A DNA stretch of 47,011 nucleotides from Desulfurococcaceae archaeon (GTDB lineage Archaea; Thermoproteota; Thermoprotei_A; Sulfolobales; Desulfurococcaceae): NCBI GenBank assembly GCA_020833245.1, contig JAJHQQ010000004.1, forward strand, positions 1 to 47,011, given 5' to 3'. A program made the position numbers and the translations under genes. The notes below the pieces were generated by a model. The model saw only the letters and a list, made by a program, of their open reading frames with translations. It ran no database searches and was not told the DNA's origin. Below are positions 1,691 to 44,809 of the stretch, one piece after another (the stretch's first letter is position 1; every line of letters starts with the position of its first letter).

Positions 1691-1742
1691 CAGTTATCAC
1701 GTTTATTCCCCTTCTCTGTAGTCACGTGAGAGGAGGGTTTAT

Positions 1743-2012
1743 ATGAAGAAGTTGATTTTAGCGGTGAGGAGTAAGGGGTGTGCTAATTGCATTGCTACAA
1801 TAGTTCCACACTTGTTTAGAATTAATGGAGTTAAAGGTGTTAGAGTTAAAGGGAGGATTGTAGAGGTTGTTTTAGAGGACGGTGCGAGCCCTGATCTAGT
1901 AGTTGGAGACGACACTGTTAGATCATACTACGAAATTCTAGACTGGAGAGTTGTGGAACTAGGAGATAGCGTAAATGTGAGTAGTAGTCGCTATCAGCTC
2001 GTCGCGAAGTAA
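1743..2012 (+). CDS. Small protein with HMA-like (heavy-metal-associated) fold and KGCANC (CxxC) motif
   Basis: 89 aa, GGAGGG Shine-Dalgarno just upstream of ATG; VRSKGCANCIATIVPHLFRINGVKGVRVKGRIVEVVLED pattern resembles HMA beta-CxxC-helix-beta-beta. Confidence 0.6.
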   Translation: MKKLILAVRSKGCANCIATIVPHLFRINGVKGVRVKGRIVEVVLEDGASPDLVVGDDTVRSYYEILDWRVVELGDSVNVSSSRYQLVAK

Positions 2013-2046
2013 TCACCACTCATTCTGGGACGGCTTCATCACTAAT
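1990..2046 (-). ncRNA. Candidate C/D box sRNA (antisense to the 3' end of the HMA-like CDS)
   Basis: Minus strand: C box GTGATGA (2042-2036), 12-nt guide AGCCGTCCCAGA, D'-like ATGA (2023-2020), 3-nt spacer, C' GTGATTA (2016-2010), 12-nt guide CTTCGCGACGAG, D box CTGA (1997-1994). Confidence 0.45.
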
Positions 2047-2069
2047 TATAGCTATTTCTCCACTTGTCC

Positions 2070-2546
2070 TTAAAATCTTAGTTTTCTAGTTAACTCCCTG
2101 GCTTTTTTCAATGTACCCGTTGTTCTCAGTGGTATAACTATGCAGTTCTTATCTCTAATTTTCTTCACGAGTCCGAGTGCGGCTATGAAGTGATCTAAGT
2201 AAACGTGTGTCACCCTGTAGACTCCTCTCTGAGTGTTCTCGTCGAAAAATACTAGTTGTGGTGAGGCCTTATAATAGGTGCTTTCACTAAATAGCTCTCT
2301 AAATTTACTTGAAACAGCCTCTGCGAGGTCCTCAAACTTAACTTTCTCTTCACATATAGCTGTAAAGACAACGTATCTTTTTCTAAGTTTTTTGACAACT
2401 AGTTCACTCTCGCGGACTCTTAAAATACTAGTGTAGACCTTGACGAGTTTGTTGAGCTTTAAGAGAACACGTATTAACATAAGAGTAGCCAGTAGCATTA
2501 AACCTAAGAGGATAGATAAGAGAGCGTCTATCAACTCAGTACTCAC
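2070..2546 (-). CDS. rnp2: RNase P protein component 2 (Pop5 family) with N-terminal hydrophobic segment
   Basis: RYVVFTAICEEKVKFEDLAEAVSSKFRELF...YYKASPQLVFFDENTQRGVYRVTH matches Pop5; immediately follows the Rpp30 stop (TAG|GTG). Confidence 0.85.
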   Translation of the reverse strand: MSTELIDALLSILLGLMLLATLMLIRVLLKLNKLVKVYTSILRVRESELVVKKLRKRYVVFTAICEEKVKFEDLAEAVSSKFRELFSESTYYKASPQLVFFDENTQRGVYRVTHVYLDHFIAALGLVKKIRDKNCIVIPLRTTGTLKKARELTRKLRF

Positions 2547-3167
2547 CTATAAGTTAACTCTCTTTCGATCTATGAGTTGCCTAGGAGTATTTGTTAGTGC
2601 CAGTATCGTTGCCCGCTCAGGTAGATCATATAGTGTTTTCATAGCTTTTACAACTACAACTGGGTGTACTAGGTCGAAGGGGCCTTTAGTGTAAGTACCC
2701 AGTACGAAACCAACTTTCCACCTTAATAGCATATTTAGCTTCCTGTAGAATTGACTTTTAACATCACTACTACTGTAGAGTAAGTGTGGTACAAGCACTT
2801 CTAGTGGCTTGTCATAGTACTTCATAACATTGAATTGGCCTTTATCAAACACCTGGATATTACGAGGAGTCAGTAGAATAGTGTCTACTCTACTATCGTG
2901 AGTACACCACCGAGCTACCTCGGTGGTCTCCGGGTGTACAGTGACAATAGTACTCTTGTACTCGATTCTCCCAAGGTCGATCTTTAAGTCGCTCACGCTA
3001 CTGGCATTTATAACAACCTTGTTCACAACACTAATACCCACGAGATCTGATCCGCGCTCTAATCGCCTCTCTAGGCAAGCCACGTGAGTATAGCCGAGTT
3101 TGTAGTGTAATTGGAGGACTTCTCTACTGCACGTAACAGCGTGTATATCTGCAAAAAAGCGCTCCAA
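2547..3167 (-). CDS. rnp3: RNase P protein component 3 (Rpp30 family)
   Basis: FFADIHAV...; ...IVTVHPETTEVARWCTHDSRVDTILL; ...PRQLI; typical Rpp30 and paired with Pop5. Confidence 0.85.
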   Translation of the reverse strand: MERFFADIHAVTCSREVLQLHYKLGYTHVACLERRLERGSDLVGISVVNKVVINASSVSDLKIDLGRIEYKSTIVTVHPETTEVARWCTHDSRVDTILLTPRNIQVFDKGQFNVMKYYDKPLEVLVPHLLYSSSDVKSQFYRKLNMLLRWKVGFVLGTYTKGPFDLVHPVVVVKAMKTLYDLPERATILALTNTPRQLIDRKRVNL

Positions 3168-28621: not shown

Positions 28622-28734
28622 GTCTTTTAACCCCCGAGATAAGCACTTCTAACTAACTCATACAATAAGGAATTAAGAGCTTTTAAATGCAGAACTATTT
28701 GACAAAGACGCAGACAGCGGGATGTGTACTCGAG

Positions 28735-28830
28735 CGCCGGGGGCGGGATTCGAACCCGCGCACCCCTTACGGGGTACTGGCTCTCCGGGCTTCTCCAGGC
28801 CAGCCCCTTAGGCCGCTCGGGCACCCCGGC
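28735..28830 (-). tRNA. tRNA-Ser (GGA) with proposed 10-nt intron at 37/38 (28783-28792)
   Basis: Minus strand GCCGGGG/CCCCGGC acceptor, G73, type II variable arm ACCCC-GTAA-GGGGT, T arm GCGGG-TTCGAAT-CCCGC; anticodon stem CTGGC/GCCAG only forms around a 17-nt loop. Confidence 0.9.
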
Positions 28831-29276: not shown

Positions 29277-30605
29277 CTACTTCTTAACTGCTACTTGTGC
29301 CGGCTTGACGTCTATTACTTGTCCTACGCCAATTGTTTTACCCATGTCTCTCATTGCGAATCTTCCGAGACCGGGGAAGTCGGAGTATTTCTCCACTACT
29401 AGTGGCTTAATTGGCTTGAATTTCACTATTGCTATGTCTCCCTGCTTAATGAACTGGGGGTTCTTCTCCAGCTCTTTGCCCGTTCTGGGGTCTAATTTTG
29501 CGACGATCTCCGATATTCTGCACGCAACACTAGCCGTGTGTATGTGAATTACAGGTGTGTATCCTACAGCTATTGCTGTCGGGTGCCACACGACCATTAC
29601 TCTCGCAGTGAACTCGTCTGCGACTACTGGTGGACTGTCTATTGGACCCACTACGTCTCCTCTCTTTATGTCTTTTCTCTCAACGCCTTTGAGGTTAAAT
29701 CCAATGTTGTCTCCGGGCTCGGCTTTCTCGATCTTGACGTGGTGTGTCTCAATGGACTTAACCTCAGCTGTGAGGGCTGGAGGCATTATTGAGACTTTAT
29801 CACCAGACTTTAGAACCCCGCTCTCAACTCTGCCAACAGCGACTGTGCCCACACCTGATATGGAGTACACGTCCTGTATTGGTATTCTAAGTGGCTTGTC
29901 AATGGGCTTAGCGGGTGGTACTAGGTAATCTAAAGCCTCTACTAGAACTGGGCCATTGTACCACGGCATGTTTGGTGAGCGCTCTATGAGATTTTCTCCT
30001 GTCCATGCTGATATGGGGACGAAGGGTACCTTGGAGACGTCGTAGCCAATGCTCTTTAAGAACTTACTAAGTACTTCTACGATCTCCTTATACCTCTTCT
30101 CGCTGTATGGGGGCTCAGTAGCGTCCATTTTATTAATCGCTACTATTAGCTGGTTAATACCCATAGTTCTCGCTAAAATAGCGTGCTCCCTAGTCTGACC
30201 TTCAGCACTCATACCGGCCTCAAATTCACCCTTTCTAGCACTGACTACCAGTATTGCCGCGTCAGCCTGGCTCGCCCCAGTGATCATGTTCTTTACGAAG
30301 TCTCTGTGTCCTGGAGCGTCAATAATCGTGAAGAAGTACTTTTTAGTCTCGAACTTCATGTATGACAGGGATATTGTGAGGCCTCGCTCTCTCTCCTCTT
30401 TAAGCCTGTCAAGTAGCCACGCAAACCTAAAGCTCTCTTTTCCCATTTTCTTAGCTTGCTCTTCTATCTCCTTCATTGTCTTCTCATCGAAGTATCCTAG
30501 ACGGTACAGTATGTGCCCTGTCATCGTGCTCTTGCCGTGATCTACGTGCCCTATCATTATCAGATTTAAGTGGGGCTTCTGCGGGGTACTCATATATTTC
30601 ACCAA
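29277..30605 (-). CDS. tuf: Translation elongation factor 1-alpha (EF-Tu homolog)
   Basis: KPHLNLIMIGHVDHGKSTMTGHILYRLGYFDEKTMKEIEEQAKKMGKESFRFAWLLDRLKEERERGLTI. Confidence 0.98.
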   Translation of the reverse strand: MVKYMSTPQKPHLNLIMIGHVDHGKSTMTGHILYRLGYFDEKTMKEIEEQAKKMGKESFRFAWLLDRLKEERERGLTISLSYMKFETKKYFFTIIDAPGHRDFVKNMITGASQADAAILVVSARKGEFEAGMSAEGQTREHAILARTMGINQLIVAINKMDATEPPYSEKRYKEIVEVLSKFLKSIGYDVSKVPFVPISAWTGENLIERSPNMPWYNGPVLVEALDYLVPPAKPIDKPLRIPIQDVYSISGVGTVAVGRVESGVLKSGDKVSIMPPALTAEVKSIETHHVKIEKAEPGDNIGFNLKGVERKDIKRGDVVGPIDSPPVVADEFTARVMVVWHPTAIAVGYTPVIHIHTASVACRISEIVAKLDPRTGKELEKNPQFIKQGDIAIVKFKPIKPLVVEKYSDFPGLGRFAMRDMGKTIGVGQVIDVKPAQVAVKK

Positions 30606-30745
30606 GCCTCAGTAACACTTGGATTTAGAAGTGGGCTTATAAATCTAGCTTACTGAGGTGCTCACGCGGAATTAATCCACGTGGAGGCTATTACAGAACT
30701 ACTGATGGTAAGTTTGAATATCTGTGAATAACTATAAATACTTGG

Positions 30746-30768
30746 TATCATAGAGTGTATCATAGAGT
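30746..30768. repeat. Two tandem 11-bp direct repeats (12-bp period) upstream of a TATA-like box
   Basis: TATCATAGAGT-g-TATCATAGAGT. Confidence 0.85.
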
Positions 30769-30772
30769 AATG

Positions 30773-30780
30773 TTTAAATA
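30773..30780 (+). promoter_or_regulatory. Candidate TATA box TTTAAATA for the structured RNA element
   Basis: About 25-30 nt upstream of the GC-rich structured segment. Confidence 0.45.
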
Positions 30781-30825
30781 CCTTTACACCCACTATAGTT
30801 TCTTGGATGATCCGCACTGCGGTGA

Positions 30826-30966
30826 CATAGAGACTCAGATGGGAGCCCCATGGCGTTGGGCTCGACGGGCACCCATGAAGTGTGGGTGAAGCCGGTGAAC
30901 CCACAAAGAGGTGCAACCCCGCTAACGGAATTACAAGCATTCACAAATACCGTCAAGTACCGTTAG
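30826..30966 (+). pseudogene. Possible remnant of a TnpB (IS200/IS605 OrfB) C-terminus
   Basis: Open frame without start: HRDSDGSPMALGSTGTHEVWVKPVNPQRGATPLTELQAFTNTVKYR*, stop TGA immediately upstream; no upstream TnpB body in the gap. Confidence 0.4.
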
Positions 30967-30971
30967 CGGGG
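30917..30971. repeat. 12-bp perfect inverted repeat, 31-nt loop
   Basis: CCCCGCTAACGG (30917-30928) ... CCGTTAGCGGGG (30960-30971). Confidence 0.95.
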
Positions 30972-31051
30972 AAACGCGAGGGATGGGACTGTATAGAGTA
31001 GAGGTTTGTTGAGATACGAGGGCGAGTACAGTACAAAGAGTATTTATTACT

Positions 31052-31648
31052 CTACCTGCTACTGAGAGCTATTCTCTCGATTTCGTCTTTTCTCTGTATA
31101 GCGTAGCTCTTAGCGTCTCCACTCGCAGCTAGTATTATTTCATCTGCAAGCGCCTCTTCAATTGGGATTAGACTATTAAAGGCCCTTAGCCTAGCCCCCT
31201 CAGTTATATGTCTTAGTGCAACATCTATTCTCCTTAGTGGAGAGACGTCTACTGAGACGTGGTATGCTATGCCACCGTACATTATTCTAGTAGTGTCTTC
31301 CCGGGGCGCGCTGTTCTCAATAGCCCTTACTAGTACCTGTAGTGGGTTTTCTCCCGTTCTCAAGTAGATTATGTCGAAGGCTTTCTTGACAATGTTGTAA
31401 GCTAGGTGTTTTTTGCCAGCATTTCTCCCCGGTCTCATGAGCTTGTTTATTAGCCTCTCAACTACTGGGACAACTGCTTTACCAAACTTCTTGTGCTCGT
31501 GTCTACCACTAGTGTGTGGTAAGTAGACCGGCTTAAGGCAGAGATACCTCTTTAAACTAGGGTCTCTCACTTCAACCAGGTCGTAACTCCACTTACCGAA
31601 CAGCTTAATTTCACTTATTTGAATCTCAGCCCCGCCCGTAGAAGACAC
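31052..31648 (-). CDS. rps7: 30S ribosomal protein S7
   Basis: [25 protein letters not shown]...PRREDTTRI-type [32 protein letters not shown]. Confidence 0.97.
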
Positions 31649-42702: not shown

Positions 42703-44598
42703 ATGGTCGTTATTGTAGAAGAGCGAGTGAGAGTGCTTGAGGCTTTATCTCACTACACGGATAAGGCTAACTTGGAGAAGCTTAGTAGGATTAGACACGT
42801 GTCTTTATTAAAGTGGCTACTTGACGTGGCTGAATTAACTAAACCAAGCAGAATTTTCATTGTGACAAGTAGTCCGAGTGATGTAGAGTACGTGCGTAGA
42901 AGAGCCCTTGAGAACAGGGAGGAGATATCGACAAGGTACAGTGTAATGCACACTGTACACTTTGATGGTCCAAGAGACCTTGCGAGGGATAGAGAAAACA
43001 CTAAGATTCTCGTTAAGCACGGTACTAAAATACCAATGGTTAACACGGGGAATAGAGAGGAGTGCTTAAAAGAAGTGCTTGAGTTGTTTAATGGAGTAAT
43101 GGCTAGTAAAGAGATGTATGTCGGCTTCTACTGCTTTGGGCCTAAGGGCTCGCCGAACACGCTTTACGGAGTCCAAGTGACAGACTCTGCGTATGTTGCA
43201 CATAGTAGCAATATACTCTACAGGATATGCTATGACGTGTTCACAGAAAGAGAGCACTTAGAGTATATGAGGTTTCTTCATAGTGTTGGTGAGAGAGATG
43301 AGAATGGGTGGTCTAAGAACATAGACAAGCGGAGAATTTACATTGACGTTGAAGACCAGATCACGTACAGCGTTAACACGCAGTACGCTGGAAATACTGT
43401 TGGGTTAAAGAAGCTCTCACTGAGACTCTGCGTGTACAGGGGTTATAAGGAGGGGTGGCTCTGTGAGCACATGTTTATTATTGGTGTTAAAGGCCCAGGA
43501 GATCGAATAACGTATTTCACCGGCGCATACCCAGCTGGCTGCGGTAAGACTTCAACTGCACTAATAGCTGACACTGTAGTTGGAGACGACTTATCTATTA
43601 TTTGGAATAGTAATGGAGAGGCGAGGACCATTAATCCCGAAGTCGGAATGTTTGGTATAATTGATGGTGTAAACCCTATAGACGATCCTCAAATATATGA
43701 AATACTAACACGCAGAGACACTGAGGTAATATTCTCAAATATACTGCTAACAGAGGAGGGTGAAGTGTGGTGGAATGGTAAGCCTGAGGAGCCGAGGCGC
43801 GGAGTAAATTACGCTGGAAAGTGGTATCCTGGTATGCACGATGAGAAGGGCTACTTAATTCCACCATCTCACCCTAACGCGAGGTTCACAACTAGTATTT
43901 TCTACTTAGAGAAATTTGACCCTAGAATAGACGATCCCAGTGGCGTCCCAGTTGGAGGGATTATATTTGGTGGTAGAGACCCTGACACCTGGGTACCTGT
44001 GGAGGAGGCCTTTGACTGGGATCACGGCGTTGTAACTAAGGGTGCCTCACTTGAATCAGAGAGGACAACTGCTGTTCTCGGTCAGGCTGGTGTCCGGGAG
44101 TTTAATCCCTACGCTATACTAGACTTCTTGCCGATATCACCTGGAGCGTATACTGAGCTTCACTTTAGATTTGGGGAGTCTCTCACTAAGAAGCCGCGTA
44201 TTTTTGGAGTAAACTACTTCTTGCGAGATGAGAGCGGGAAATACCTCAATGAGAAGAGAGATAAGTACGTGTGGTTGAAGTGGATGGAGTTAAGGGTTAA
44301 TGGTGATGTCGAGGCTATTGAAACCCCCACTGGCTACATACCACTATACATAGACCTAGAGAAGCTCTTCGCGAGAGAACTAGGTAAGGAGTTCAGAGAA
44401 GAACTCTACGAAAAGCTCTTCTCAATTAGAGTAGATAAGCACTTAGAGAAAACTGAGAGAATATGGAATATATATAGTAGAATACTGGACACTCCGAAGA
44501 AACTACTCGATATACTACTCTGGCAGAAGAGGAGACTTGAAGACGCGAAGTGGCGATATGGACCTGTAATTAGCCCATTTAAGCTAGACAGGAGGTAA
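42703..44598 (+). CDS. pckG: Phosphoenolpyruvate carboxykinase (GTP)
   Basis: FTGAYPAGCGKTSTALIAD; GMFGIIDGVNPIDDP; VPVGGIIFGGRDPDTWVPVEEAFDWDHGV. Confidence 0.96.
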   Translation: MVVIVEERVRVLEALSHYTDKANLEKLSRIRHVSLLKWLLDVAELTKPSRIFIVTSSPSDVEYVRRRALENREEISTRYSVMHTVHFDGPRDLARDRENTKILVKHGTKIPMVNTGNREECLKEVLELFNGVMASKEMYVGFYCFGPKGSPNTLYGVQVTDSAYVAHSSNILYRICYDVFTEREHLEYMRFLHSVGERDENGWSKNIDKRRIYIDVEDQITYSVNTQYAGNTVGLKKLSLRLCVYRGYKEGWLCEHMFIIGVKGPGDRITYFTGAYPAGCGKTSTALIADTVVGDDLSIIWNSNGEARTINPEVGMFGIIDGVNPIDDPQIYEILTRRDTEVIFSNILLTEEGEVWWNGKPEEPRRGVNYAGKWYPGMHDEKGYLIPPSHPNARFTTSIFYLEKFDPRIDDPSGVPVGGIIFGGRDPDTWVPVEEAFDWDHGVVTKGASLESERTTAVLGQAGVREFNPYAILDFLPISPGAYTELHFRFGESLTKKPRIFGVNYFLRDESGKYLNEKRDKYVWLKWMELRVNGDVEAIETPTGYIPLYIDLEKLFARELGKEFREELYEKLFSIRVDKHLEKTERIWNIYSRILDTPKKLLDILLWQKRRLEDAKWRYGPVISPFKLDRR

Positions 44599-44686
44599 TA
44601 GCCGGGCGGGGATTCGAACCCCGGTCACGGGGGCTCTCCCGTACTCGGCCAGAGCCCCGCATCCTTGGCCGCTAGACGACCCGGCT
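44599..44686 (-). tRNA. tRNA-Gln (CTG) with proposed 15-nt intron at 37/38 (44634-44648)
   Basis: Minus strand AGCCGGG/CCCGGCT acceptor with A1:U72 pair, anticodon stem CGGGG/CCCCG around 22-nt loop CTCTGG[CCGAGTACGGGAGAG]C, T arm CGGGG-TTCGAAT-CCCCG. Confidence 0.88.
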
Positions 44687-44809
44687 ACTCTTCACTCAAA
44701 GTATCTATTAAGGGGGTTATAAACATCAAAGTGGCTATAGTAGAGAGTGCTCAATTAACTCGACATGTAGCTTTTTAACCGCTTTTTGCAAGTATTTCAT
44801 GCTGGGCAA

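Follow-up and report, generated by a model that had tools for sequence, protein, structure and literature searches.

An IS607-derived mini-element in the rps7-tuf gap of a Desulfurococcaceae archaeon, a probable mobile gene for a stand-alone TnpB guide RNA

Results

The window analysed here is a stretch of 47,011 nucleotides from a Desulfurococcaceae archaeon (contig JAJHQQ010000004.1). The tuf and rps7 genes, both on the minus strand, are separated in it by a gap of 446 bp (30606-31051), as the initial annotation had stated. The same gap spans roughly 130 to 275 bp and is free of the element in seven congeneric genomes. Therefore, the extra length of the gap in the window is due to the insertion. 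The intergenic DNA of the congeners is too diverged from that of the window for base-by-base alignment and for reconstruction of the empty site of the window copy. Since about 45 bp separate the element from the conserved TATA box of tuf, upstream of which it lies, tuf probably retains its own promoter. Elsewhere in the window, ARAGORN reported two tRNA-like genes without a clear anticodon on the minus strand (28734-28830 and 44598-44687), which are possibly intron-containing tRNAs. Rfam backs a tRNA for the former only, not for the latter. The features of the locus are collected in Table 1.

Table 1. Features of the rps7-tuf locus and of the mini-element, in window coordinates.
Feature	Position	Strand	Basis or remark
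tuf (EF-1 alpha)	29277..30605	-	flanking gene, ORF start 30605
tuf promoter-like box TTTATAAG	30643-30636	-	conserved TATA box, left intact
Left junction AG/GC	30685..30688	+	left flanks and empty site; target supplies AG (TAM-like), GC is the crossover dinucleotide
Non-autonomous IS607-derived mini-element, 291 bp, GC at both ends	30687..30977	+	ends set by comparing about 40 copies, plus one empty site
Left end	30687..30745	+	82% to L038 element positions 1-58
Mini-specific segment, contains the TATA-like box	30746-30807	+	comparison with full elements
TATA-like box TTTAAATA	30773..30780	+	putative promoter
5' hairpin P1, stem AGUUUCU/AGAGACU around GATGAUCCGC..GCGGUGA	30797..30835	+	stem kept with differing sequences
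18-bp piece from inside tnpB (codons ..VIRSAVK..)	30808..30825	+	17/18 to L038 1693-1710 and L039 1696-1713
Leftover TnpB C-terminal frame, 46 codons and TAG, no start codon	30826..30966	+	homology to TnpB C-terminus
tnpB 3' coding end, omega-RNA scaffold and right end	30833..30977	+	96% over 145 bp to L038 right end
Helix P2 GAGCCC/GGGCUC with apical loop	30843..30863	+	covariation
Pseudoknot strand GCGUU, partner AACGC 30973-30977	30853..30857	+	pairing in 51 sequences
Helix P3	30869-30873/30910-30914	+	with P4, strongest compensatory changes
Helix P4	30881-30887/30899-30905	+	with P3, strongest compensatory changes
Terminal stem P5, 12 bp	30917-30928/30960-30971	+	covariation
Right end AACGC, pseudoknot partner and crossover GC	30973..30977	+	copy comparison, pairing
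Presumed guide, first 20 nt past the right end	30978..30997	+	position only, analogy with TnpB reRNAs
rps7	31052..31648	-	flanking gene, 3' end at 31052

The gap had been annotated as holding an orphan tnpB 3' end with an omega-RNA and a right end, without TnpB or TnpA. This reading was upheld in its core and revised at its borders. The GC-rich segment is present and is part of the larger element. The right end, placed at about 30972, was moved to 30977, and a left end is also there, so that the 3' end is not an orphan. The 12-bp perfect terminal stem was found as described, and so was the TATA-like box. The plus-strand frame GSPMALGSTGTHEVWVKPVNPQRGATPL matches the TnpB of a full element at 72% identity over residues 387-432 (E 2.5e-16); as had been noted, it lacks the TnpB body and a start codon. 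Coding of a residual peptide was ruled out, given the missing start codon and the stops or indels in sister copies. The scaffold part of the window element corresponds to positions 1825-1969 of the full element. The 18-bp piece lies in full elements about 115 nt further upstream of the scaffold than in the window copy. In those full elements, it supplies the loop portion of a strong hairpin within the tnpB coding sequence, for example GAGCCCCU...AGGGGCUC.

A BLASTN search with the whole gap as query, of the kind the initial annotation had proposed, returned a second copy in the same genome at 76% and many copies in congeners. The second own-genome copy (L002, G000:C24:22340-22594, minus strand) is more diverged and its right end is changed to GGGAAATTGC. 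It is neighboured by a flavodiiron-type protein gene and a peptide release factor-like gene. The copies fall into two size classes. The short ones measure about 265-293 bp, and the full elements, from the same genus, measure 1969-1972 bp. In the full elements, of which L038 and L039 have ends homologous to those of the window element, a left end (about 58 bp) and a right end (145 bp, 86-96% identical) flank two genes. The first, in L039, encodes a TnpA of 217 aa with Resolvase and HTH domains, an IS607 serine transposase (NF033518, E 4e-60), and the second a TnpB of 432 aa (TIGR01766, E 1.7e-15). This TnpB family was recognised by NCBIfam but not by Pfam, and phmmer against PDB chains gave no match. 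Because its ends are common to full relatives encoding an IS607 serine transposase and TnpB, the window element is an IS607 derivative, and because the serine TnpA is absent from the element itself, it is a derivative rather than an autonomous member. Neither a Y1 HUH TnpA nor IS200/IS605-type ends were found, as the relatives sharing the ends carry the serine TnpA. By sequence comparison, the element is thus shown to be an internally deleted IS607 tnpA-tnpB element and not an IS200/IS605 element, the family to which it had been assigned. The PATE-like nature also suggested for it holds as regards the short, non-autonomous (PATE- or MITE-like) kind, but not the family. Inspection by eye of the L039 TnpB (1697-2995, minus strand) showed another residue in place of the usual RuvC glutamate (IVVIGNID), with a glutamate in VSERGTSSRDP instead. 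This layout resembles the alternative glutamate of some IS607 TnpBs, and no zinc-finger cysteines were seen. Since the usual glutamate position is missing on this inspection, nuclease activity of the family TnpB is not assured.

The well-preserved copies have in common the right end ...AAACGC, which is nearly invariant, and the left end GCTGTT.... Among 35 distinct left flanks, the two positions before the GC are A in 30 and G in 31; the GC itself appears in 35/35 because the search was anchored on it. The TAM-like AG motif adjoining the left end, a putative cleavage requirement, is in line with the AG-rich TAMs of IS607 TnpBs (PMC11061315). An empty site (L119) was found in another genome for the sister copy L043, with 89% identity straight through the join TTTTAAATAGGC/TTAAG. 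It holds a single GC within one AGGC and no target duplication, which shows insertion at a GC dinucleotide. By this comparison, the sister copy is shown to have moved in the past. A candidate empty site for the full element L038 (L145) is 75% identical, too low to fix the junction. The presumed guide next to the right end of the window copy has no other match in its own genome with up to three mismatches.

The RNA structure was examined in the mini-elements and in the wider family. RNAalifold on 32 mini-elements, without guidance, recovered helices P2-P5 and the inner stem of P1. With the full structure as we drew it, 90.1% of the cells in the mini-elements are paired and 60 cells are doubly changed; shuffles gave 18.2 such cells and slid controls 9-15. 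In 51 sequences, the doubly changed cells number 277 against 88.6 in shuffles and 8-36 in slid controls, counts that lean upward for the helices, as this alignment was fitted to the nested helices. A covariance model built from the mini-elements alone matches full tnpB loci at their right ends (E about 1e-28 to 1e-42), as well as the right ends of a TnpB family of 36-37% identity (E about 1e-16 to 1e-19). The pseudoknot was left out of the covariance model, and its pairing is therefore an independent test: 98.7% of its cells are paired in the 51 sequences, with a G-C to C-G swap in 15. The pair is GCGUU/AACGC in the clade of the window and CCGUU/AACGG in the distant TnpB clade. The crossover dinucleotide seems to co-evolve with the pseudoknot of the putative guide RNA. 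TnpB reRNAs of both IS families have a pseudoknot between the guide-flanking bases and the first stem-loop (PMC10711439). Here, the scaffold at the tnpB 3' end runs to the right end and the pseudoknot is at the guide flank, as in a TnpB omega-RNA/reRNA. The window copy preserves every helix and the pseudoknot. The region folds better than its shuffles (z = -2.37; 5 of 200 shuffles equal or better), a modest result on its own. The Rfam search that had also been proposed gave no family, RAGATH-18 included, at gathering threshold or at E up to 10, save a chance miRNA match at E 7. Among individual copies, those of the distant TnpB clade (L062, L068, L079, L222-L246) end in AAACGG and not AAACGC, with the apical loop changed to match. 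Four right ends (L044, L048, L090, and L091) have the P5 loop inverted with respect to the other copies and the stem kept; the last TnpB codons are altered by this inversion and the hairpin is not.

A pattern scan for the 5' motif closely joined to the scaffold was run on one genome per species across 85,462 species. It gave 52 stretches, 40 of them in MAGs named Desulfurococcales, Desulfurococcaceae, Acidilobaceae, Ignisphaera, Thermogladius, or Thermosphaera, one being labelled Sulfolobales; the other 12 come from scattered bacteria and were regarded as chance matches of a degenerate pattern. Together with the previously collected loci, 44 distinct mini-elements were obtained. A TATA-like match lies upstream in 43 of these, mostly 37-42 nt ahead of CCGC. 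The information profile of the box was excluded as evidence, since the copies had been preselected by a TATA pattern and the measure is partly circular. The arms of the P1 stem differ by lineage, being AGUUUCU/AGAGACU in the window, ACAGCCCCC/GGGGGGCUGU in Acidilobaceae, and AUACUUC/GAAGUAU in Thermogladius, and the linkers differ also. When the 3' arms were redealt among the elements, pairing weakened and 0 of 1000 permutations reached the observed mean energy; for nine family representatives, one per lineage, the fraction was 0.004. The latter is the fairer figure and the former is generous because of related sequences in the full set. In several lineages, the hairpin that lies 115 nt within tnpB has escaped the internal deletion, and the differing junctions among lineages suggest that the deletion arose several times.

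Discussion

Both ends have survived the internal deletion, as have the 5' hairpin and the scaffold together with its pseudoknot. The best explanation, which we consider quite likely to be right, is that the window element is a non-autonomous IS607 mini-element whose sole gene is a stand-alone TnpB guide RNA (omega-RNA/reRNA), moved by TnpA and used by TnpB in trans. TnpB is the ancestor of CRISPR-Cas12, and TnpB-guided cutting is thought to retain full transposons in the genome. In the case of the mini-element, the plus strand would be transcribed, probably from the TATA box at 30773. TnpA from a full relative would move the DNA by recombination at the GC dinucleotide, and TnpB made in trans would bind the RNA. 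Guided by the bases from 30978 onward, next to AGGC, this TnpB would cut the empty donor site, and repair of the cut site would copy the element back. The start expected from the TATA box is about 30802, at the end of the 5' arm of P1 and not before it; therefore, this promoter may not yield the whole P1 stem. Neither TnpA nor TnpB of the family was found in the element's own assembly (78% complete, 78 contigs), so the element may be dormant in the present genome. Trans supply fits Bin S11 (G040), which has many mini-elements and, along with them, three TnpB copies that are full-length, uninterrupted, and 80-81% identical to the L039 TnpB. No close TnpB was found in some hosts of mini-elements (G025 and Thermogladius G046).

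The missing TnpA and TnpB would also be expected of a functionless, internally deleted IS607 copy, whose structure lingers by youth or by descent from structured tnpB ends, and the more diverged second copy with its changed right end agrees with such a fate. We think a dead remnant rather unlikely, since all helices and the pseudoknot are intact in the window copy, the compensatory changes in the mini-elements as a class are unlike neutral decay, and a hairpin far inside tnpB has escaped deletion in several lineages. Nor is the element obviously decayed, which had been raised as one possibility: its scaffold scores 159.7 bits, with the window copy in the training set, against 158.9 and 163.4 for full elements. 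It is quite improbable that the long right end was kept merely as a DNA site for TnpA, with its RNA structure irrelevant in the mini-elements. Mobile ends must be retained in cis, and a nearly invariant right end suits a DNA site. However, the TnpA of IS607, a serine recombinase, works on double-stranded DNA (PMC10711439) and should need no hairpins; moreover, pairing is kept by compensatory changes while the sequence varies, and the 5' hairpin is far from the end in full elements. Exaptation of the guide RNA for regulating the rps7-tuf operon or another target, an idea of the initial annotation, is very improbable. The element does lie within a translation operon and antisense to it, and domesticated TnpB-like regulators (TldR) exist (PMC13418256), but the seven congeners lack it at the orthologous gap, the guide has no second match in its own genome, a TnpB-like protein of the family was not found in the assembly, and the tuf promoter box is intact. 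An IS200/IS605 element or PATE is hardly credible, because the TnpB proteins that would favour it are common to both families (PMC10711439), whereas the nearest full elements encode a serine TnpA of the IS607 type and insertions of this class occur at a GC dinucleotide.

Beyond the window copy, we put forward a wider account, to which we give even chances. IS607 elements across Desulfurococcales and relatives would have lost tnpA and tnpB time and again, turning into mobile genes dedicated to the guide RNA. In each lineage, the stretch of about 100 nt between hairpin and scaffold would have been removed, the stem rebuilt with another sequence, and a TATA box placed ahead. The mini-elements would spread by drawing in trans on the TnpA and TnpB that full relatives provide. 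The crossover dinucleotide would co-evolve with the pseudoknot (GC with GCGUU and GG with CCGUU).

The concepts of stand-alone omega-RNAs and of PATEs are already familiar from other families. The stand-alone IscB omega-RNAs of Ktedonobacter are guide-RNA loci without a nuclease gene and are presumed to act in trans; they belong to IscB rather than TnpB and are not IS607 mini-elements. Haloarchaeal PATEs are derived from IS200/IS605-type elements with palindromic ends, in contrast to IS607 here. They are alike in being short, non-autonomous kin of TnpB-carrying IS elements (PMC3119063). The reRNAs of IS607 TnpBs (ISXfa1, PMC10711439; RAGATH-18-associated, PMC11061315) share with the present family the RNA at the right end, dinucleotide insertion, the pseudoknot between apical loop and guide flank, and an AG-rich or G-rich motif in the left flank. 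They differ in that the RNA is found here without tnpB and the crossover is GC, not GG. In the full relatives, the scaffold also overlaps the tnpB coding sequence, unlike RAGATH-18, and there is no Rfam match. IS607-related MITEs of a related crenarchaeon, Staphylothermus marinus, are likewise non-autonomous derivatives of about 260 nt (14 copies, PMC2678158); in that 2009 report they were likened to the region upstream of transposase ORFs, and a guide RNA was not recognised. Archaeal omega-RNAs from tnpB 3' ends have been described for IS200/IS605 (PMC12558985), where IS607 is unmentioned. In the literature searched, in which coverage of subscription papers was sparse, no description of IS607 mini-elements as guide-RNA genes was found.

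If the mini-elements do carry a guide RNA only, the RNA alone would be selected as a mobile gene and TnpB would be exploitable in trans. Their natural deletions would then indicate the minimal guide RNA that these hyperthermophile TnpBs probably accept. This minimal guide RNA would consist of the 5' hairpin and a scaffold of about 145 nt, with some 100 nt dispensable, and could be useful for work with thermostable TnpB.

A trace of rearrangement was also seen at another copy. The left flank of L041/L159 (G005:C25:45187-45450) is common to L042 (G003:C9), and the right flanks part exactly at the right end. The right flank of L042 lies about 4 kb away in G005, past an ABC-transporter cluster, and the element marks the breakpoint.
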